DNA from: Pseudarthrobacter sp. MM222
Lineage (GTDB): Bacteria; Actinomycetota; Actinomycetes; Actinomycetales; Micrococcaceae
Direction: 5' to 3'
DNA: 64,000 bases
Assembly (NCBI RefSeq): GCF_947090775.1
Contig: NZ_OX352321.1
Coordinates: forward strand, 682,001-746,000
Numbering within the stretch: position 1 is the first letter of the stretch; every line of letters starts with the position of its first letter. Positions 16,033 through 46,238 of this stretch are shown here, one piece after another. The position numbers and the translations under genes are program-made. Below the pieces are notes generated by a model. It did not search any database and was not told the DNA's origin. It was given only the letters and a program-made list of their open reading frames with translations.

Positions 16033-16422
16033 CTACAGCGAGTTGAGGTCCGCCCTCAGCGGGTAGTTGCGGCCATCAAGCACGAGTTGCGTGCAGCGGC
16101 CGGTGGCCGGGTTGAGCACGATCGGGGCCATCAGGTTGACCGTGGTGGAGCCGGGAGCGTGCGTGAGTACCACCAGCAGCTGGGGTGCCTCACTCTGCCC
16201 AAGTCCAAGGGCCTCCAGCGTTGCGGCGGGAATCGGCGGGGCGTAGCCAGGCACGAAGACGGCCGCGTCGGCCAAGAACAGCCGCACCGGAGTGGCGCCC
16301 GATTCCAGGGCGTACAGCCCGGCGGCACCTTCGACGCTCCGTAGCGTGAAGTCGTGGACGTTTTCCAGGCCCGGCATGGGGGCGGTGAAGGAGACGGAGG
16401 GGTTCATCACGGCGGTGCTCAC
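16033..16422 (-). CDS. fliW: Flagellar assembly factor FliW
   Basis: 129 residues, the normal length. The FliW fold is seen in FTAPMPGLENVHDFTL, the VFVPGYAPPIPAATLEALGL segment and TVNLMAPIVLNPATGRCTQLVL. FliW binds free flagellin and the translational repressor CsrA in turn: when flagellin is exported FliW blocks CsrA. It overlaps flgL by 4 bp at the end of flgN-flgK-flgL-fliW. csrA is at 44373, so both partners are in this cluster. Confidence 0.93.
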   Translation of the reverse strand: MSTAVMNPSVSFTAPMPGLENVHDFTLRSVEGAAGLYALESGATPVRLFLADAAVFVPGYAPPIPAATLEALGLGQSEAPQLLVVLTHAPGSTTVNLMAPIVLNPATGRCTQLVLDGRNYPLRADLNSL

Positions 16423-17344: not shown

Positions 17345-18763
17345 TTATCTTCCTACCAGTCCGGTGCGGTTGATCAGTACATCGAGCGCCTCGTCGACGG
17401 CGGTCATCACGCGCGCCGCGGCCTGATAGGCGTGTTGGTTGGTGAGCAGGCTGACGTTCTCCTCGTCCAGGCTGACCGACGCCTGCGAGGCGCGGCTGGT
17501 CTGGGCCGAGGCCTGGGCGGCCGCGGTGAGTGTCTCGTGCTGTTGGGCCCCACGTGACTGCACGCCTATGTTGGTGACGATGCCTGACCAGATCTTGTCC
17601 GGTGAGCCCGGGCCGGTGCCGAGCTGCGAAATTTGGTCGGCGATGCTTGTGTCCAGGGCGCCCTTGCCCGCCAGCTTGAGTGCGATGTCGGCCGTGGCAG
17701 CGGGGCCCTTGATGCTGAGCGCGGCCGGCCCGCCGCCGCTAATGGTGAAGAAATCCGCGTTGGCACCATTTCCGGTTACTCCGGACTTGTGGATCGGATT
17801 CACAGCCGTAGCCAGGGCCGAAGCGATGTTGTTGTACGCCTCGGCTGCCTCGGCGATCACGCCCCCGGATCCTCCGTTGACGGAGGCGGGGGCCAGGACA
17901 GAGAGGGCACCAAGAATGCTACCGCCGTCAAGGACCACGGCGCCCTCGGGATTCACCCAGTCCACGCGCGGAGCATTTCCGCTGGCCTGACTCATCGTTG
18001 TGGCGCCCGTCAGCGCCAGCGTTCGCACGGACCCGCCGGTGACGAGGGCATTGCCTCCGAGCAGGACGTCCACGGTGCCGTCCGGCTGTTCCCGGACGGT
18101 GCCACCGACCAGGTTGGCGATGCTGTCCGTCAGCTTGGCGCGGGCGTCTATCAGTTCGTTGGCAGAGCCGCCGGCAGCGAGGGTGGAACGGATGGTCGTG
18201 TTGTAGGCAGCAACCTGGCTGGCGGCGGCGTTGACAGCGTTGACGTTGTCAGAGGCCTGGGCGCGAACGCTGCTCCACTGCGAGTCGAGAGCTTGGTACG
18301 CGGAAGAGATCTTGTCTGTCACGGAGTTGGCCGCATTCAGAATCAGACCCTTGGGTCCGTCCTCGGAGGGCTGGTTCGCGGCGGCTTGCCAGGCTGACCA
18401 GAAGCCTTGCAGTGCGGTGGAGATGCCGTTTTCGCCCGGTTCCCCAAGGATTTCCTCGATGCCCTGGAGCGCGCCGGAGCGGACGCTGGCGTAACCCGCT
18501 TGGGCGCCCGCGGAACGCGCGCTGGAATCCAGGAAGCTGCTGCCAAGCCGGGCGATGCCGTCCACGGAGACGCCTTGACCAGCCTCGGGCCGCCCCGATC
18601 CGAAGAGGCCCTGCGCGGGAGCGGCGAGGGACGACTGCTGCACACGCTGTCGCGTGTAGCCTTCGGTGGCCGCGTTCGCGATGTTCTGCCCCGCCACGTT
18701 CATGCCTTGCTGGGCTGCGGTCAGACCACGGTAGGCGGTGTTCAAGGCCCCGAAGGTGCTCAT
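17345..18763 (-). CDS. flgK: Flagellar hook-associated protein FlgK (HAP1)
   Basis: 472 residues. The N-terminal STFGALNTAYRGLTAAQQGMNVAGQNIANAATEGYTRQRV is the rod/hook coiled-coil motif with NIANAxTxGY. The C-terminal VSLDEENVSLLTNQHAYQAAARVMTAVDEALDVLINRTG is the matching helix. It forms the first hook-filament junction ring. It follows flgN, whose product should be its export chaperone. Confidence 0.95.
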   Translation of the reverse strand: MSTFGALNTAYRGLTAAQQGMNVAGQNIANAATEGYTRQRVQQSSLAAPAQGLFGSGRPEAGQGVSVDGIARLGSSFLDSSARSAGAQAGYASVRSGALQGIEEILGEPGENGISTALQGFWSAWQAAANQPSEDGPKGLILNAANSVTDKISSAYQALDSQWSSVRAQASDNVNAVNAAASQVAAYNTTIRSTLAAGGSANELIDARAKLTDSIANLVGGTVREQPDGTVDVLLGGNALVTGGSVRTLALTGATTMSQASGNAPRVDWVNPEGAVVLDGGSILGALSVLAPASVNGGSGGVIAEAAEAYNNIASALATAVNPIHKSGVTGNGANADFFTISGGGPAALSIKGPAATADIALKLAGKGALDTSIADQISQLGTGPGSPDKIWSGIVTNIGVQSRGAQQHETLTAAAQASAQTSRASQASVSLDEENVSLLTNQHAYQAAARVMTAVDEALDVLINRTGLVGR

Positions 18764-18773
18764 GGTCGCTTCC

Positions 18774-19262
18774 TTAGAATTGCTGGTCGAAGATGCGGGA
18801 GCCGGCGGATTCCCCGGTCTTGCCGTGGGCGTCGTAGGTTCCGGCCGCAGCGGTGGGACGCAGATCTGCCAGTGTTTCCTGGGTGGAGCGGACCGCGGTG
18901 CGCAGATACTGTTCGTTGGAGTCGCGAAGTTCCTTGATGAGGGCAGTTTGCCGCGTCAATGCGGTCAGGTGAGCCGTGAGGATTTCGGACCAGGCGCCTT
19001 CCGGCGCGGCGGCCGCAAGTTCGCCAAGGGAGGCATTGGTGGGTAGTCCCCAGGTTTCCGCGACGACGGCGGCTTCGATGGTGCGCGCCAGGCTCGCCTT
19101 GGAGAGGTGCTCCAGCACCTGCTCGACCTCTTTGGTGCCGTGCGGCAGCCAGCGCGACTTGCCGGCGGTCAGCAGGAGCTGCTCTTCTTCCAGCTTGAAG
19201 GTGAGAACGTCCAGAAGTTCACGTTCCCGCCATAGCAGGGCTGAAAGTTCGTGGATGGCCAT
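18774..19262 (-). CDS. flgN: FlgN-type export chaperone, copy 1
   Basis: 162 residues, almost entirely helical. LSALLWRERELLDVLTFKLEEEQLLLTAGKSRWLPHGTKEVEQVL is the FlgN helical hairpin; WGLP-NASLGELAAAAPEGAWSEIL follows. FlgN escorts FlgK and FlgL to the export gate. It is the first gene of the operon and has a FliA-type promoter at 19357-19383. A clear paralogue lies at 44644-45195, which is unusual. Confidence 0.88.
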   Translation of the reverse strand: MAIHELSALLWRERELLDVLTFKLEEEQLLLTAGKSRWLPHGTKEVEQVLEHLSKASLARTIEAAVVAETWGLPTNASLGELAAAAPEGAWSEILTAHLTALTRQTALIKELRDSNEQYLRTAVRSTQETLADLRPTAAAGTYDAHGKTGESAGSRIFDQQF

Positions 19263-19356
19263 GGTCCGGACGGCTCCTCGGGGTGGCTTGTGCGGTGGTG
19301 CCGGGGCGTCAACATCATCGTGCGGACGATTCAGCCTTCAGCGGGGTTCGTAGAAA

Positions 19357-19383
19357 CTATCGGCAGGCTCGACGAATCCGTTA
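19357..19383 (-). promoter_or_regulatory. FliA-type promoter for flgN-flgK-flgL-fliW
   Basis: On the minus strand TAAC (19383-19380), 15 bases, GCCGATAG (19364-19357). This fits the sigma-28 pattern TAAA-N15-GCCGATAA and the three similar sites in this window. It lies about 95 bp upstream of the flgN start. Confidence 0.75.
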
Positions 19384-19452
19384 GTAGGAATGGACCTGAT
19401 AGCTAGAGCGGCTGGGCGGAAAGATGACAAGAAAACAATTTTCGATTTCTGC

Positions 19453-19479
19453 TTACCCGCGCATCAGAACTGGCGATAA
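19453..19479 (+). promoter_or_regulatory. FliA-type promoter for fliC
   Basis: TTAC (19453-19456), 15 bases, GGCGATAA (19472-19479), preceded by TTCTGC as in the flgB promoter. The predicted transcript begins near 19486, giving a leader of about 55 nt. Confidence 0.75.
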
Positions 19480-19490
19480 CTACTCCTGAA

Positions 19491-19533
19491 GGCCCATGGA
19501 TGGGCCCTCGCTCAACACCCTAATCACGGAGGA
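19491..19533 (+). promoter_or_regulatory. Probable CsrA-binding leader of fliC
   Basis: A 6-bp hairpin GGCCCA-TGGA-TGGGCC (19491-19506) presents GGA in its loop, a few bases after the predicted transcript start. A second GGA lies in the Shine-Dalgarno itself (ACGGAGGA, 19526-19533), 30 nt further on. A high-affinity loop plus a site over the Shine-Dalgarno is how CsrA represses hag in Bacillus subtilis. The RNA fold is my reading, not computed. Confidence 0.6.
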
Positions 19534-19540
19534 ATTCACC

Positions 19541-20389
19541 ATGGGTATGCAGATCAACACCAACCTCGGCGCCAACAACGCCTACCGCAATCTGAACAAC
19601 ACGCAAAACGACCTGTCCAAGTCGCTCGAAAAGCTGTCCAGCGGTCTCCGTATCAACCGCGCGGCCGACGACGCTGCCGGCATGTCCATCGCAACGGCCC
19701 TTGGCTCGCAGGTCTCCGGCCTCGACCAGGCCGGCCGCAACACCCAGGACGGCATCTCGGTCATCCAGACCGCTGACGGCGCCCTCGGCCAGGTCACTTC
19801 GATTCTGCAGCGTATGCGTGACCTCGCTGTCCAGGGCAACAACGGTGCCAACAGCGTTGACGCCCAGGACGCTATCAGCAACGAAGCCAAGTCACTCGGC
19901 CAGGAACTTGCCCGCATTACCGACAACACCAAGTTCGGTGACAAGGATCTGCTCAAGGGTGGCTCCATGATCATCCAGGTCGGCGCCAACGGCAACGCCG
20001 ACGATCAGATCACGATCAACCTGGCTGACACGCAGGCTGGCGCCGACCTCGATTTGTTGTCCGGCGCGGACAACAACGTCGCTGGCGGCTTCGACATCTC
20101 CACCGCAGTCCTCGCTCAGGGCACGATCGATAGCATCGACCTCGCCCTGGAGAACGTCTCCGCATCGCGCTCCGACCTCGGTGCCGTGCAGAACCGCCTC
20201 GAGTCCGCCGCCAAGACCGTGGCCATCGCTAAGGAAAACCTGTCCGCGGCACAGTCCCGCATCCAGGACACCGACATGGCAGCCGAAATGGTCAAGTACA
20301 CCAAGGCCGGCATCCTGTCCCAGGCTGGCACTGCCATGCTGGCACAGGCCAACCAGTCCGGCCAGGGCGTTCTTCAGCTCCTGCGCTAA
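19541..20389 (+). CDS. fliC: Flagellin
   Basis: 282 residues, a compact flagellin with the conserved D0/D1 ends and almost no D2/D3 region. N-terminus: MGMQINTNLGANNAYRNLNN, KLSSGLRINRAADDAAGMSIA, QDGISVIQTADGALGQV. C-terminus: SRIQDTDMAAEMVKYTKAGIL and LAQANQSGQGVLQLLR. The ATG at 19541 is set by GGAGGAA 8 nt upstream; the in-frame ATG at 19496 lies in the leader hairpin. FliS (chaperone), FliW and CsrA (regulation) are all encoded in the cluster. It is the only flagellin in this window. Confidence 0.96.
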   Translation: MGMQINTNLGANNAYRNLNNTQNDLSKSLEKLSSGLRINRAADDAAGMSIATALGSQVSGLDQAGRNTQDGISVIQTADGALGQVTSILQRMRDLAVQGNNGANSVDAQDAISNEAKSLGQELARITDNTKFGDKDLLKGGSMIIQVGANGNADDQITINLADTQAGADLDLLSGADNNVAGGFDISTAVLAQGTIDSIDLALENVSASRSDLGAVQNRLESAAKTVAIAKENLSAAQSRIQDTDMAAEMVKYTKAGILSQAGTAMLAQANQSGQGVLQLLR

Positions 20390-20393
20390 ACCG

Positions 20394-20430
20394 CTCCCGG
20401 CGCTATCCGGTAGCACTGTTTGACCGGGAG
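20394..20430 (+). terminator. Hairpin after fliC
   Basis: A 7-bp inverted repeat CTCCCGG / CCGGGAG with a long inner part starts 5 nt after the fliC stop. No T-run follows, so it may be a weak terminator or an mRNA 3' stabiliser. Confidence 0.4.
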
Positions 20431-20530
20431 GGCCGGGCGGTAGGAGCAATCCATCGTCCGGCCTTTACCTGTAATACGATCCGGTTCCAGTCCGCACATT
20501 TGAAGTTCTAGCCAGTAAGGAGCAGCAGCC

Positions 20531-21841
20531 ATGGGAATCTCGCTCGACGGACTGGCCAGCGGGCTGGACACAACCTCGTTGATCAGCGCCCTGATGCAGG
20601 TCGAGGCGATTCCGCAAACGCAGCTTAAGAGCAAGTCGACCGGCATCCAGTCGATGGTCTCCGCGCTTCAGGGGCTCAACAGCAAGGTCGCTGCCCTGGC
20701 GACCCAGGCCGCCGCCGTGGCTAAACCCGGTGCCCTGGACCTTTACTCCGCCACGACGAGCAGCGACAAGATCGCTGCCACCACCACCTCGGCTGCGAAG
20801 GCCGGTTCAATCGATTTCCAGGTGGACAAGCTAGCCCAGACCCAGGTCACCGTGACCAACAAAGTGGTGGGCTGGCCCTACACCACGATGACCATTACCA
20901 GCGGTGGTCAATCCATCACAGTCACCCCGCTGACCAGCTCTCTGGATGACGTCGTCATGGCCGTCAACGCTGCCGGTGCAGGCGTTGTCGCCACCAAGGT
21001 GGCCGTCGGCGGCGGGGAGTTCCGCCTCCAATTTGCCGCGACCAAATCCGGCAGCGCCGGTGCCTTCACGATCAGCGACCCTGGGACGACGTTCACGAAT
21101 GCCAAGGACGCCCAAGACGCGGAGCTCCAGTTGTGGGCAGGCTCGCCGGCCGCCATGACAGTCAAGTCATCGACCAACACCTTTACGGATGTGCTGCCCG
21201 GTGTCTCGATCACGGCAAAAGAAATCACGGCGCTCGCGACGCTGACAGTTGCCCGTGACGACGCAGGAATCACCAAACTGGCCTCCGACCTCGTGACCGG
21301 CGCAAACGGCATCTTCTCCCTCGTGGCAAGCAAGACCGCCGTCTCTTCCACCGCCACCTCCACGACGGGCGGCATCTTCACTGGCGACAGCACCGTGCGA
21401 TCCGTCAACCAAAGCATTCTTTCAGCAGCATCGTTGCCTGTCGGTACCCCGCCGCGTTCGCCCTCGGAAATCGGTATCAGCATCACCAAGACTGGCACCA
21501 TGGAGTTCGACGAAAAGAAGTTTTCTGCTGCACTCGCCGCGGACCCTGCGGGAGTTGGAGCGAAGGTTCAGGAAATTGCCACCCGGATAGCTGCCGCCGC
21601 CACGAAAGCCTCGGACAAGTACGACGGGACGCTGACCACCAAGATAAGCGGCCAGGAGTCTGAGGTCCGCGATCTCGCGGACCGGATTACCGACTGGGAT
21701 GTTCGGCTTGCCTTACGCAAGACCTCGCTTCAGCGCACGTACTCCGCCCTCGAGGTGGCGCTCAGCGGCATGCAGGCGCAACAGTCGTGGCTCACTGCCC
21801 AACTCTCCGGCCTCTCCTCCTCAGGAAGTAACTCAGCATGA
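20531..21841 (+). CDS. fliD: Flagellar filament cap protein FliD
   Basis: 436 residues. The N-terminal MGISLDGLASGLDTTSLISALMQVE is the FliD signature. The FliD_C part holds GSAGAFTISD and GIFTGDSTVRSVNQSILSA, and the C-terminus has RITDWDVRLALRKTSLQRTYSALEVALSGMQAQQSWLTAQLSGL. It caps the filament and folds flagellin at the tip. AAGGAG lies upstream of the ATG. It overlaps fliS by 4 bp (ATGA). Confidence 0.95.
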   Translation: MGISLDGLASGLDTTSLISALMQVEAIPQTQLKSKSTGIQSMVSALQGLNSKVAALATQAAAVAKPGALDLYSATTSSDKIAATTTSAAKAGSIDFQVDKLAQTQVTVTNKVVGWPYTTMTITSGGQSITVTPLTSSLDDVVMAVNAAGAGVVATKVAVGGGEFRLQFAATKSGSAGAFTISDPGTTFTNAKDAQDAELQLWAGSPAAMTVKSSTNTFTDVLPGVSITAKEITALATLTVARDDAGITKLASDLVTGANGIFSLVASKTAVSSTATSTTGGIFTGDSTVRSVNQSILSAASLPVGTPPRSPSEIGISITKTGTMEFDEKKFSAALAADPAGVGAKVQEIATRIAAAATKASDKYDGTLTTKISGQESEVRDLADRITDWDVRLALRKTSLQRTYSALEVALSGMQAQQSWLTAQLSGLSSSGSNSA

Positions 21842-41126: not shown

Positions 41127-43175
41127 ATGAACAACAGGCTCGCCAGACTGAGTGTGCCCGTCGGCATTGTGGGCATTGTGATGCTGCTGGTTGTTCCGTT
41201 GCCCGCGCTGCTGCTGGACTTCCTCATTGTCTGCAACATCCTGCTGGCGCTCCTGGTCCTGCTGACCAGCATGTTCGTGAAGAAGCCGCTGGACTTCTCG
41301 GTATTCCCCTCGTTGCTCCTGGTCGCCACCCTGTTCCGGCTGGGCCTCAACGTGGCCTCCACCCGGCTGGTGCTGGGGGAGGGGTACGCCGGCCAGGTGA
41401 TCGAGGCCTTTGGCCATGTCACCGTGGGCGGATCCTTGATCATCGGCGCGGTGGTGTTCCTGATCCTCGTGGTCATCCAGTTCGTGGTGGTCACCAAGGG
41501 CGCCGAGCGCGTCGCGGAAGTCGGCGCCCGCTTCACCCTCGACGCCATGCCCGGCAAGCAGATGGCGATCGACGCCGACCTCAACGCCGGGCTCATCACG
41601 GACACGCAGGCCCGGGAGCGGCGCGCCGAGGTCTCGGCGGAGGCCGACTTCTATGGCGCCATGGACGGTGCATCCAAATTCGTCAAGGGCGACGCGATCG
41701 CCGGTCTCATCATCATCATCATCAACTTCGTCGGCGGCATCGCGATCGGCATGCTGCAGCGCGGCATGGAAATCGGTGACGCCCTGAGCACCTACGGCAT
41801 CCTCACGATGGGGGACGGGCTGGTCACGCAGATCCCGGCACTGCTGATGGCCGTATCCACCGGCATGATCGTGACCCGGTCGAACGCCGAATCGGACATG
41901 GGCAGCACGGCGTCCACCCAGCTGATGCAGTCGCCCAACGCGCTGATGATTGCCGGCGTCGCCGCGATCGCCATGGCGCTGATCCCGGGCATGCCGCCCC
42001 TGCCGTTCATCCTGGTAGGTGGCGGACTGATCTTCGCGTCCCGCCGGATCGCCGCCAAGCAACGGCAGGACGAGAAGTCCGCGGAGGCCGAGGCGACGGC
42101 GCTGAGTTTTCCGGAGATGGACCCGAACGAAAAACTGCTCGAGGACATGCGCATCCATCCGGTGGAAATCCTGCTCGCGCCGGATCTCGTGGACATGGTC
42201 TCCGGCGCCTCGGACGACCTGCTGGCCCGCGTCCGGTCCCTGCGGCACAAGATCGCCATGGAGTTGGGCCTTGTCATCCCGCCTGTCCGCACCCGGGACA
42301 GCGTGGACTTGCCGCTGGCCAGCTATGCGATCCGGATCGCAGGGGTGGAGGCTGGCCGCGGCACTGCCCCGTCCGGGCAGATGCTGGCCCTGGGCGACAA
42401 CCTCGATTCGCTCCCCGGCGTCGCGATGATCGAGCCGGTGTTCGGCCTGGCCGGCAAATGGATCCCGGCGGAAATGCGCCACAACGCGGAGATGACCGGT
42501 GCCACCGTGATCGACCGTGTCTCTGTCCTGGTGACGCATCTGTCCTCGATCGTCACGGCCAACGCCGCCCGGCTGTTGTCTCGTGAGGACGTCCGGGTGC
42601 TGACCGAGGGCGTGCGCAAGCAGAGCCCCTCCGCCGTCGACGAGCTCACCCCGTCGTTGCTTTCCCTGGCCGAGCTGCAGCGTGTGCTGCAGGGCCTGCT
42701 GGATGAACAGGTGCCGATCAACGATCTGGCCCGGATTTATGAAGCGCTCACCCTCCGCGCCAAGGTCTCCACTGATCCCGAATCGCTGGTGGAATCAGCC
42801 CGCCAGGCATTGGGTCCCGCGCTGACGGCCAAATTCATGGACGGCCCCGTGCTCAATGTGATCATGATCGACCCGCTCCTGGAGCAGTCCATGCTCGAGG
42901 ACATGCGGCCGGCCGAGGGCGGCAGCCAGATCGTCATGGGCCAGGACCGGCTCGACGCCGTGCTCCGCTCCGTTGCATCCGCCGTCGATTCCGCTGCGGC
43001 CGCCAACCGCCAGGCCGTGCTGGTCTGCGCGCCGGCACTCCGGCCGGCGATCCGCCGCCTCGTGGGGAGCCAGCCGGGCTCCGTGCCGGTGCTGTCCTAC
43101 CGCGAAGTTACTTCAGCCAACGTCCGGATCGAAACCGTAGGAGTCGTGCGCCATGCCGAACCGCTATCGGCTTAA
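41127..43175 (+). CDS. flhA: Flagellar export gate protein FlhA
   Basis: 682 residues. Eight TM helices in the first 320 residues (VGIVMLLVVPLPALLLDFLIVCNILLALLVLL ...), the FHIPEP-like segment GLNVASTRLVLGEGYAGQVIEAFGHVTVGG, KGAERVAEVGARFTLDAMPGKQMAIDADLNAGLI, and a cytoplasmic domain that docks chaperones. GAAAGG upstream of the ATG. It overlaps the next gene by 23 bp. Confidence 0.97.
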   Translation: MNNRLARLSVPVGIVGIVMLLVVPLPALLLDFLIVCNILLALLVLLTSMFVKKPLDFSVFPSLLLVATLFRLGLNVASTRLVLGEGYAGQVIEAFGHVTVGGSLIIGAVVFLILVVIQFVVVTKGAERVAEVGARFTLDAMPGKQMAIDADLNAGLITDTQARERRAEVSAEADFYGAMDGASKFVKGDAIAGLIIIIINFVGGIAIGMLQRGMEIGDALSTYGILTMGDGLVTQIPALLMAVSTGMIVTRSNAESDMGSTASTQLMQSPNALMIAGVAAIAMALIPGMPPLPFILVGGGLIFASRRIAAKQRQDEKSAEAEATALSFPEMDPNEKLLEDMRIHPVEILLAPDLVDMVSGASDDLLARVRSLRHKIAMELGLVIPPVRTRDSVDLPLASYAIRIAGVEAGRGTAPSGQMLALGDNLDSLPGVAMIEPVFGLAGKWIPAEMRHNAEMTGATVIDRVSVLVTHLSSIVTANAARLLSREDVRVLTEGVRKQSPSAVDELTPSLLSLAELQRVLQGLLDEQVPINDLARIYEALTLRAKVSTDPESLVESARQALGPALTAKFMDGPVLNVIMIDPLLEQSMLEDMRPAEGGSQIVMGQDRLDAVLRSVASAVDSAAAANRQAVLVCAPALRPAIRRLVGSQPGSVPVLSYREVTSANVRIETVGVVRHAEPLSA

Positions 43176-44298
43176 GGGGGCCTCGCTCGAGGAGATCCGC
43201 CGCAAGGCGGAACAGCAGCACGGCCCCGCGGCCCGCATCGTCTCGGCGGAGCGCGTCATCAGCCCCGGAATCGCGGGCCTCTTCGCCGGCGACCGCTACG
43301 AGGCGATCGTCGAAGTGCTCCCCAGCCATGAGGTGGTCACGGGCGAAGTCGTGCCCGACCCGGACGTCCTCGCCGGGTCGGACCCTCGCACAGACGCGGC
43401 GGCGGATGTTGAGCCGCCCGCGGCCGGGAGCGGCTCGGGTACCGGCATGCCGGAGCCAGCGGCTTCCCGCCCTGCCTCCGCCGCTTCCCGCAACGTCCCG
43501 CCCGCGGCGGCGTCCCGCCCCGGCCAGGCTCCGGTCCCGGCTGACGCCCCCTCCCACCAGTTGCAGGGGGCCGCCATCGCGGCGCTGCTCGAAGAGGCCG
43601 ACGCGGCCGAACTCAACCTGCACCGCCCCGGCAGCGCCGGCGTGTCGACGGAGTCGCCGGACTTTGCGCAACTGCTGGAACAGCTCGGCGCCGGGCTGCG
43701 GGCCGCCCCCGTCACCGGCCGCGAGGACGTCCCGGTCGCGCCGGTCGCGCCGATTCCGGCGTCTCCGGTGCCTGATGGACGCGGGCCCGCACCTGCTCCG
43801 CCCCGCGAAACCGTTCCGGTCCTGTTGTCCGGGGTCGGTGATCTGGTGGTTCTCATCGGCCTCGGGGACGACGCGCTCGACGCGGCCCTGGCGATGTCCA
43901 TGGCGGCCGGCGGCGCAGACGTGCGCACGGCGGGGAAGTTGACGGCCTACGGTCATCTGCACGTGGACGGTCGTCAAAGCGCGACGGCGGCCCGGGCCCA
44001 CGCAGTGCTGACGGACCAGACGGTGCTCGTCGCCTTCGGGCTGGGGAAAGCCCGCGACACGGTCGCGCGGCTGCAGTCTGTCGCCGCGATCTCCGCCGAC
44101 CAGCTCTGGGTGGTGGTGGACGCCGGACGCAAGCAGGAGGACACTGCGCGCTGGGTCAAGGTGCTCGCCTCGCAGCTCAACGTCACTGCCGTCGCCGTCG
44201 TCGGAGCGGAAGAAACCGCCACGCCGGAAACCGTCCGGGGGCTGGGGCTGCCGGTCGGTTGGGTCGACTCCGACGACGCGGCGGCCAGTGGGATATAG
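43153..44298 (+). CDS. FlhF-like protein with a degenerate GTPase domain
   Basis: 381 residues. Residues 1-56 (YRLKGASLEEIRRKAEQQHG, AARIVSAERV, GIAGLFAGDRYEAIVEV) match the N-terminal domain of FlhF. A Pro/Ala linker follows. Residues from about 215 look like an SRP-type GTPase that has lost its nucleotide motifs: VVLIGLGDDALDAALAMSMAAGGADV sits where the P-loop GxxxxGKT should be, and AVVGAEETATPETVRGLGLPVGWVDS where TKLDE and the following helix should be. FlhF normally sets flagellar site and number. Position after flhA is the usual one for flhF. The call is mine from motif comparison. Confidence 0.65.
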   Translation: MPNRYRLKGASLEEIRRKAEQQHGPAARIVSAERVISPGIAGLFAGDRYEAIVEVLPSHEVVTGEVVPDPDVLAGSDPRTDAAADVEPPAAGSGSGTGMPEPAASRPASAASRNVPPAAASRPGQAPVPADAPSHQLQGAAIAALLEEADAAELNLHRPGSAGVSTESPDFAQLLEQLGAGLRAAPVTGREDVPVAPVAPIPASPVPDGRGPAPAPPRETVPVLLSGVGDLVVLIGLGDDALDAALAMSMAAGGADVRTAGKLTAYGHLHVDGRQSATAARAHAVLTDQTVLVAFGLGKARDTVARLQSVAAISADQLWVVVDAGRKQEDTARWVKVLASQLNVTAVAVVGAEETATPETVRGLGLPVGWVDSDDAAASGI

Positions 44299-44372: not shown

Positions 44373-44633
44373 ATGCTGGTACTCACACGCAAGCCGGGCG
44401 AACAGATCATGATCGGCGACGGCATCGTCATCACGGTTCTGGAAGGCCGCGGCGACGGTGTCCGGATAGGCATCGAGGCACCCCGGGGCGTTCCGATCCA
44501 GCGCAAGGAAGTCATCGAGGCCATTGCCGCCGCCAACCTTGCCGCGGCAGAGGCCGGAGCGGGCTCCGGCCCGGATGCCGAGGACGCCCTGCGCGGACTG
44601 TTGCCCCCTGCCCCCGCCGGCAGCTCCGACTGA
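44373..44633 (+). CDS. csrA: Translational regulator CsrA
   Basis: 86 residues. MLVLTRKPGEQIMIGDGIVITVLEGRGDGVRIGIEAPRGVPIQRKEV is the complete CsrA core, with R44-type RNA contact region present (IQRKEV); the Ala-rich tail is longer than usual. It binds GGA-loop hairpins in mRNA. FliW, its antagonist in Gram-positive bacteria, is encoded at 16033-16422. Its own start is in AGAGGATG, itself a CsrA-like motif. Confidence 0.95.
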   Translation: MLVLTRKPGEQIMIGDGIVITVLEGRGDGVRIGIEAPRGVPIQRKEVIEAIAAANLAAAEAGAGSGPDAEDALRGLLPPAPAGSSD

Positions 44634-44643
44634 CAATTTTCGG

Positions 44644-45195
44644 TTACTGGCCCAGTTCGCCGTCGAGATACTGGTCCAGCATTGGCTGCGAGGTCCGTCG
44701 CAGAATGTTCCGGGCCCGCTCGATGTTGGCAGCCACGGTGAGCTGGTCGAGAGTCTCCGCTGTATCGGCGCCGGGTCCCGGGCCGGCCACCCCAACTGGG
44801 GACGCCCCTGATGATCCCGGCGGATTCAAGTTCCGCAGGAGCTGTTGGCCGGTGCTCGCCGCGGCACTGAGCTGGCCGAGCAAATTCCGGAGCCCGGCCC
44901 GATGCTCCCGCAGGATTTCCGCCCAGGTGCCGGCCGGTGCTCCCGCGATCAGTTCGACCAGCGTGGCCTGGGCGGGAAGTCCCCATTCCGCCGCCACGGC
45001 CGCCGACTCGACGCTCCGGGCCAGGGCTTCAAAGCGCAGGCGGTCCAGGACGTTTTCGACTTCGGAGGCGGTAAAGCTGAGCCATTGAAGGTTCCCGGCC
45101 AGGAGGTGCAACCGTTGTGTCTCGAGCCTGAACAGGAGCAGTTCCAGCTCGCGGCGCTCCTGCCAAAGAGCCGCCGAAAGATCACTCGCACCCAT
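44644..45195 (-). CDS. FlgN-type export chaperone, copy 2
   Basis: 183 residues, a clear paralogue of the FlgN at 18774-19262. Matching stretches are LSAxLWxER-xLxxLLFxLExxxLxLLAGxxxWL, SEVENVLDRLR, ALARSVESAAVAAEWGLPAQATLVELIAGAPAGTWAEIL. It differs in a Gly/Pro-rich linker and an extra C-terminal helix (NIERARNILRRTSQPMLDQYLDGELGQ). It is convergent with csrA, 10 bp between stops. A dedicated partner (FliD, FliK or the NlpC/P60 protein) is possible. Confidence 0.78.
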   Translation of the reverse strand: MGASDLSAALWQERRELELLLFRLETQRLHLLAGNLQWLSFTASEVENVLDRLRFEALARSVESAAVAAEWGLPAQATLVELIAGAPAGTWAEILREHRAGLRNLLGQLSAAASTGQQLLRNLNPPGSSGASPVGVAGPGPGADTAETLDQLTVAANIERARNILRRTSQPMLDQYLDGELGQ

Positions 45196-45419
45196 GCGCC
45201 CTTTCTTGTTGCGGCCCCCGCCGAAACAGTGTTACCGCAGTTTCGGCCAAGCTTTTTCCTGAGGGTACACGGACATTGCTGTTATGGTGATAAGTTTCCT
45301 CATGGGTGCTGCGCCCGGGTATCGAACACCGCCTCCCTTGGGGGGAGTGAGGGACCGTTTGCGGGTGCGGCTCTCGGTGTTTTTAAGCTCCTTATCCGGT
45401 CTCATGGGGGGACAATCTA

Positions 45420-46238
45420 TTGAATCGCGCGGAACGCAACGAGATGGTCACACAGCACCTTCCGCTGGTGGGCTACCTCGTTTCAGATTTGTGCTCGAAA
45501 GCGTCACACCTTTCCCGCGACGACCTGGCGTCAGCGGGCGCCATCGCCCTGATTACCTCCGCCGACTCCTTTGACCCGGATCTCGGCGTGCCGTTCGGAG
45601 CCTTTGCCCGCCGTCGCATCCTCGGCGCGTTCGCGGACGAAATGCGGGCCAGCGACTGGGCCACCCGCTCGGCGCGGCGCCGGATCAAGGAAACCATGTC
45701 CGTGCAGGAAACCCTGGCGGCCGCGTTGGGACGCACTCCCACTGTTGACGAGATCGCCTCGGCCCTCGGGGTGCAGCAGAGCGTCGTCGAGGCCGCCCTG
45801 GCCGACGCGTCCCGCACCTTGACGCCCCTTGATGAAGCAGTCGTCGACACGCTGGCAGCGGAGACACTGACCCCCGAACACTCCGTACTCGCGGACGAAC
45901 GGCTGCAATACCTCCGCGCGGCTGTGACATCGCTGCCGGAACGGATGCGCTACGTGGTGGAGGAGATCTACTTCGGCGACAGGACCGTAAAGGAACTCGC
46001 CGCGGAACTCGGCTCCACCCACGCGGCAGTGTCTCAGCAGCGTTCCGAAGCCATCCGCCTGATGCGCGACGGACTCACGGCACACTACTCGGACGAACCC
46101 GGGCAGAGCTTCGAGCCGCAATCCCGGATCACACCCAGGCGCCGGAATGACTACTTGTCCCAGCTGGCCGAGGCAACCACCGGCGGCATCACCCGCGCCA
46201 TCTTCCCCGCGGCATCCATGCTCAACGAAGCGGTCTAG
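45420..46238 (+). CDS. fliA: Flagellar sigma factor FliA (sigma-28 type)
   Basis: 272 residues from TTG 45420, preceded by a GGGGGG tract. Region 2 reads LVGYLVSDLCSKASHLSRDDLASAGAIALITSADSFDPDLGVPFGAFARRRILGAFADEMRASDWATRSARR; region 3 has ALGRTPTVDEIASALGV; region 4 YVVEEIYFGDRTVKELAAELGSTHAAVSQQRSEAIRLMRDGL. This is a FliA/WhiG-type sigma factor and the natural reader of the four promoters listed here. No flgM anti-sigma gene is seen. Confidence 0.93.
   Translation: MNRAERNEMVTQHLPLVGYLVSDLCSKASHLSRDDLASAGAIALITSADSFDPDLGVPFGAFARRRILGAFADEMRASDWATRSARRRIKETMSVQETLAAALGRTPTVDEIASALGVQQSVVEAALADASRTLTPLDEAVVDTLAAETLTPEHSVLADERLQYLRAAVTSLPERMRYVVEEIYFGDRTVKELAAELGSTHAAVSQQRSEAIRLMRDGLTAHYSDEPGQSFEPQSRITPRRRNDYLSQLAEATTGGITRAIFPAASMLNEAV

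Follow-up and report, generated by a model that had tools for sequence, protein, structure and literature searches.

Background

The question raised by this locus is what a small hairpin just upstream of a flagellin gene does in an actinobacterium. In Bacillus subtilis CsrA blocks the Shine-Dalgarno (SD) of the flagellin mRNA, free FliW removes CsrA, and cytoplasmic flagellin holds FliW, as described in PMC7652899, PMC6529632 and PMC6070490. An earlier reading of the window (the whole stretch of 64 kb that was analysed), made from its letters and called the sequence-only reading here, claimed a CsrA target with two sites in the fliC leader. We believe that the leader is very probably such an operator, predicted to bind CsrA in a CsrA-FliW-flagellin loop of the Bacillus type, and that this is the best reading of the evidence. 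The argument turns on these features:

16033..16422, minus strand: fliW, 129 aa (Pfam PF02623, E 2.4e-22, 79.5 bits against a cut-off of 25)
19452..19479, plus strand: FliA (sigma-28)-type promoter, CTTA at 19452-19455 and the -10-like GGCGATAA at 19472-19479
19491..19506, plus strand: BS1-like hairpin, stem GGCCC/GGGCC, loop ATGGAT, GGA at 19498-19500
19524..19533, plus strand: BS2-like site, the SD TCACGGAGGA with CANGGANG inside it
19541..20389, plus strand: fliC, flagellin of 282 aa (Pfam Flagellin_N and Flagellin_C), ATG at 19541
44373..44633, plus strand: csrA, 86 aa (PF02599, 88.2 bits)
45420..46238, plus strand: FliA/WhiG-like sigma factor gene (TIGR02479), start codon uncertain

The fliC leader and the flagellar cluster

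The hairpin reads GGCCC-ATGGAT-GGGCC (full stretch AAGGCCCATGGATGGGCCCT, 19491-19506 of the window), and an additional A-T pair is able to close the stem, leaving the loop TGGA. The motif CANGGANG is common to the hairpin and the SD TCACGGAGGA, and the GGA of the loop lies 30 nt from that of the SD. The hairpin begins 11 nt after the FliA-type -10. We infer that the transcript starts near 19486, which would make the leader about 55 nt long and put the hairpin at its 5' end. The sequence-only reading had described a 6-bp hairpin with loop TGGA shortly after a predicted FliA start and a second GGA within the SD, and each of these parts is present in the window. The arrangement relative to the promoter is a common one: 202 fliC leaders that could be anchored share the promoter profile C-T-A/C/T-A, 16 nt, GCCGATA (9 of the 211 leaders had no anchor), and in 123 of the 202 the spacing from CGAT to CANGGA is 21 nt.

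The motif alone is unremarkable in 64 kb, since the window holds 5 hairpins that combine an ANGGAN loop with 5 or more stem pairs, against 4.26 expected; when the 75-nt leader is shuffled by dinucleotides, 8 of 5000 versions contain one. It is conservation among relatives that marks the hairpin as non-random.

A single flagellar cluster lies in the window. From the fliC promoter region flgN, flgK, flgL and fliW run leftward; fliC, fliD and fliS point the other way, and beyond them come the genes for basal body, hook, motor and export, then csrA and the sigma factor gene. The sequence-only reading had csrA and fliW in the same cluster, and this holds for the flagellar cluster as a whole; the two genes are however about 28 kb apart on opposite strands, not side by side in an operon of the Bacillus layout. 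We count such an operon as non-defining for the CsrA-FliW-flagellin partner-switching loop. The two genes are adjacent in some other genomes of the class and phylum (e.g. G903:C13 and G1017:C13), so their coupling differs between lineages. The sigma factor scores 131.6 bits against TIGR02479, which is below the curated cut-off of 189.6 and still the best among 56 matching families. A frame at 43153-44298, between flhA and csrA, matches the FlhF-like family TIGR03499 weakly, at E 0.0014 and with a score far under the cut-off, and has no match in Pfam. Another frame at 44845-45423, between csrA and the sigma factor gene, was considered as a FlgM substitute and dropped, as it has no Pfam or NCBIfam match and nothing supports that role.

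Conservation of the two sites

Of 206 genomes of the genus 59 have a flagellin match, weak in G020 and G102, as do 100 of 295 genomes sampled from the family; leaders were fetched for part of the latter, giving a family set of 143 loci with 130 distinct leaders. All 143 loci carry CANGGANGG upstream and TCA[CT]GGAGGA as SD, either as TCACGGAGGA (122 loci) or as TCATGGAGGA (21 loci); in L121 the first CANGGANGG match is not the hairpin. An uninterrupted hairpin with an ANGGAN loop and at least 4 bp forms in 126 of the 130 distinct leaders, where shuffled leaders give a mean of 0.83 and a maximum of 3. The stems of L037, L064, L092 and L106 have one mismatch (e.g. A-A or A-G) and pairing continues past it. 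For L036 the hairpin that was counted is a neighbouring pairing, and its own hairpin has one mismatch and further pairs. At least five of the seven pairs form in all 130. A second collection of 80 named relatives, which overlaps the family collection, has the uninterrupted hairpin in 68 and CANGGA in the SD of every leader; the remaining 12 have one or two internal mismatches by inspection. Four Leifsonia leaders (L321, L331, L333, L343) have a tandem G-A/A-G mismatch in the stem (GCGGGACATGGACGGACCGC) in place of two standard pairs, possibly sheared GA pairs.

The sequence-only reading was staked on conservation of the hairpin and its GGA loop, and proposed that related leaders be aligned for covariation. 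The hairpin is kept, as these counts make plain, and the stem covaries. Of 107 distinct hairpin windows, 25 that were nearly identical were removed by hand and one was re-anchored; in the remaining 82, 90.4% of cells pair against 72.5% in shuffles. The covariation score is 0.438 against 0.127 for shuffled sets, with none of 500 shuffles as high and slid versions reaching at most 0.119. Two other measures on these windows, pairs changed on both sides and further pair types, are not above shuffles, and three of the seven stem pairs are invariant. Shuffles ignore kinship, and therefore a parsimony count of changes was also made on a tree of the flagellin proteins of 157 loci (184 less 25 whose proteins are identical and less L232 and L235, which have no candidate hairpin). 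Compensatory double changes from pair to pair number 70 over six pairs, 26 of them at pair 3, where the hairpin taken for each locus was the ANGGA with the best pairing, 4 of 6 pairs being the minimum, a choice that is biased towards pairing and loses those 2 loci. The same tree has 19 single pair-to-pair changes over the six pairs and 77 changes into or out of a mismatch, including 60 at the outer pairs 5 and 6. The loop stays ANGGAN while the stem is exchanged.

The pattern is nearly absent before two other flagellar genes. Before fliD a qualifying hairpin occurs in 1 of 140 leaders and CANGGA in the SD of 18 of 140; before flgN both counts are 0 of 70. A covariance model of hairpin and SD, built from 46 of 114 distinct family leaders, gives the fliC leader 67.5 bits (E 1.4e-18) in a search of the genome that scored 150 of 2930 first-look candidates; the next match among those scored has 19.1 bits (E 0.026). 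That match (404596-404633, plus strand) is antisense to a long frame, which we take to encode a purine-synthesis enzyme from its looks, and was judged to be chance. A third match, at 3550142-3550200 on the minus strand, lies in a stretch open on both strands. The Rfam covariance models have no match on the leader and three weak ones elsewhere in 18700-20700 (E 4 to 6.9).

Spread through the phylum

Sampling more widely, flagellin matches were found in 77 of 248 genomes drawn from the order, 31 of 246 from the class and 44 of 246 from the phylum. For order and class together, leaders were located in 89 of 92 loci; removing 4 that repeat family leaders and 3 same-genome repeats leaves 82 distinct ones. 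An uninterrupted hairpin forms in 67 of these 82 and at least four of seven pairs form in 79; L210 forms three of seven, and for L232 and L235 the stretch searched contains no ANGGA. With the four family repeats included the count is 71 of 86, where shuffles lead one to expect 0.47. Several order genomes have three to six full-length flagellin matches in tandem (G596:C18, G531:C3, G516:C3, G500:C2, G549:C1), and order genomes with tandem flagellins entered the counts with one leader each.

The pattern continues into other classes, more weakly than in the order and class. Outside the class the strict hairpin is found in 10 of 27 leaders against 0.16 expected, with a maximum of 2 in 200 rounds. 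Several of the ten have GCAAGGAUGC-type stems unlike those of the family, and one, L240, may be a chance pairing. The other 17 lack the strict hairpin although fliW is present in all 27 genomes and csrA in 26; the strict rule misses variants such as GGAGCGAC-AAGGA-GTCGCTCC in L247. Among 55 flagellated genomes of the class and phylum, picked from the flagellin matches with most weak ones excluded, csrA is present in 53 and fliW in 54. The genome G1111 lacks csrA and has no strict hairpin (L260); G727, which is 80% complete, lacks both csrA and fliW and has one (L223).

Co-inheritance and the absence of FlgM

Across the 206 genomes of the genus csrA is found in 58, fliW in 59 and flagellin in 59, with all three together in 57. 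Outside these 57 csrA occurs only in G156, a genome that is 68% complete and has csrA and fliW with no flagellin found, so csrA follows the flagellum in the genus. G102 has a weak flagellin match only. In G020 (C1:4352616-4353699) fragments of flagellin and FliW lie side by side, an apparent remnant, in a genome in which no csrA was found.

A search for the FlgM family gave no match in 198 genomes drawn from the order, with three control genomes positive; the window does have its FliA-like sigma factor, yet the anti-sigma family is missing from the order genomes searched. This agrees with the literature. In 2008 no flgM was reported in Kineococcus radiotolerans or three other flagellated actinobacteria (PMC2587704), and in 2023 FlgM absence was noted for classes without FlgFG, including Actinomycetia (PMC10746217). 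With FlgM undetected, flagellin may be checked mainly or solely by a translational loop; an analogue of FlgM that has no homology to it might also exist. A more sweeping idea we offer tentatively, and would not bet on at even odds: that in flagellated Actinomycetes, with no FlgM, the CsrA-FliW loop on a single mRNA is the sole checkpoint that couples flagellin synthesis to completion of the hook, with CsrA a dedicated flagellin repressor instead of a global regulator, gained and lost with the flagellum, perhaps close to the ancestral job of CsrA.

The CsrA and FliW proteins

The window CsrA is longer at its C-terminus than E. coli CsrA (86 against 61 aa). Its closest PDB match is 5dmb chain D (E 4e-13), a CsrA in an entry that also contains FliW, and the alignment has no gaps across residues 2-68 of the 86. 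For the window FliW the matches are 2aj7 and chain A of 5dmb (E 1.2e-5 for 5dmb). The NCBIfam scores of the two proteins (for FliW, the equivalog) are below their cut-offs. CsrA has L4, R44, I51 and N55 in the window and in all 20 genus proteins fetched out of 58 matches; L4 and R44 we take to be RNA-contact positions. According to PMC7829508, V51 and N55 of Campylobacter CsrA bind FliW and N55 does so in Bacillus; N55 is invariant in the FliW-containing species compared there and V51 is replaced by isoleucine in half of them.

Four of the features that we regard as making up the loop are found: a CsrA homologue that keeps L4 and R44, its C-terminal extension with the FliW-binding positions N55 and V/I51, a FliW homologue (PF02623, as listed), and a flagellin leader with a pair of GGA sites, the upstream one in a hairpin loop and the other in the SD.

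Proposed mechanism and its alternatives

The pair of hairpin and SD is kept by relatives, and for this reason the feedback switch of Bacillus probably operates here as well. The case as read from sequence is made by both sites, the covariation of the stem, the co-inheritance of csrA, fliW and fliC, and the CsrA contact positions; CsrA binding, the ribosome block, FliW antagonism and FliW-flagellin binding are carried over from the Bacillus system by analogy. One RNA-binding face of a CsrA dimer would sit on the ANGGAN loop of BS1, the 5' hairpin, and the other on CANGGANG of the SD (BS2) about 30 nt downstream, and the docked dimer would keep ribosomes off fliC. FliW not bound by unsecreted flagellin would bind CsrA around I51 and N55 and free the leader. 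Because the leader would be freed by FliW released from flagellin, flagellin synthesis would be paced by export.

Folding predictions bear on whether the hairpin exists in the mRNA. Up to the ATG its probability in the window leader is 0.997, from which we expect it to form first during transcription; with 30 coding bases included it is 0.0002. The minimum-energy fold switches when 3 to 15 coding bases are added, and the 5' arm then pairs around the start codon. One could take this as a switch that needs no protein, similar to a riboswitch or thermometer, with the 5' arm pairing alternatively with the start codon. The alternative fold (19484-19570) is however not conserved and was set aside for that reason: with 30 coding bases the hairpin keeps a probability above 0.5 in 168 of 193 leaders, including 0.9985 in the closest relative L003, and falls to 0.5 or less in 25. 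The leader has no Rfam match either, so we consider a protein-free switch very improbable. The SD is predicted to be partly paired, with a median unpaired probability of 0.40-0.46 and 0.21 in the window leader.

It is also important to consider that the hairpin could act without CsrA as a 5' stabiliser of the mRNA or a promoter-proximal element of FliA transcripts, the SD simply being a good ribosome-binding site. Stabilising stem-loops can occur at mRNA 5' ends, and this hairpin is placed there too, with constant spacing from the -10. A stabiliser has no need of a fixed loop, yet in a search that itself required ANGGA the loop in the best position is ANGGAN in all 130 distinct family leaders and in 80 of 82 from order and class, the other two having no ANGGA. 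The loop is ANGGAN in 229 of 230 loci even when only GGA is required, a search that picked a neighbouring GGA in five of the 230. The stem has been exchanged many times under this fixed loop, and CANGGA stands in the fliC SD of 80 of 80 named relatives against the 18 of 140 for fliD. These points make the stabiliser unlikely, although we rate it above the protein-free switch. Early termination at an attenuator is the least credible proposal and we give it almost no weight: the stem is GC-rich and lies just after the inferred start, but no T-run follows it, and a scan of 19250-20560 for intrinsic terminators (a GC-rich hairpin with a T-run) gave 0 sites. The two-site CsrA operator is the reading we carry forward.

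Comparison with known systems

The usual picture of CsrA is of a global regulator with many targets, and here csrA follows the flagellar genes in a large group in which one mRNA carries a predicted two-site operator that covaries. If binding is confirmed, flagellin homeostasis without FlgM could be studied here in a minimal CsrA system, and the view of an old flagellin loop common to Bacillota and Actinomycetota would gain support.

The sequence-only reading supposed that the loop was new for an actinobacterium of this kind, and in this it went too far. A 2008 study of Kineococcus radiotolerans had put forward CsrA control of fliC on the SD site alone, 9 of 12 bases of which equal B. subtilis BS2, and as here csrA lies in the motility island (PMC2587704). 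That paper deals with one genome and with BS2 only; its main text mentions neither BS1 nor a stem-loop nor FliW. Actinobacteria are also named among the phyla that may use FliW against CsrA (PMC4682653). Our literature search, which worked at the level of titles and the starts of abstracts and covered few subscription papers, turned up no CsrA test on an actinobacterial flagellin mRNA and no description of the hairpin. As far as the searches show, what is new is the covarying hairpin site, its spread, and the fact that csrA follows the flagellum.

In the CsrA-FliW-flaA system of Campylobacter jejuni FliW antagonises CsrA, whose V51 and N55 bind FliW (PMC7829508); a wider CsrA regulon has been described for this species (PMC4894983). 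For the fliC leader of Clostridioides difficile a pair of CsrA sites is likewise predicted, BS1 TGACAAGGATGT and a BS2 at the SD, and FliW antagonises CsrA; it belongs to another phylum and the prediction is from one leader, without covariation (PMC8523840).

A close parallel is the CsrA-FliW-Hag system of Bacillus subtilis. The hag gene has a sigma-28-type promoter and its BS1 sits in a hairpin loop. Both leaders have an upstream CsrA site and another on the SD (predicted here; for hag BS1 at A51-A55 and BS2 at C75-G82, as cited in PMC8523840), both systems have FliW, and Bacillus CsrA too has a C-terminal extension (PMC7652899). Translational coupling links CsrA to FliW in B. subtilis (PMC6529632), whereas csrA and fliW are about 28 kb apart here. 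The present system also differs in having no detectable FlgM and in its leader, which at a predicted 55 nt or so would carry the hairpin at its 5' end.
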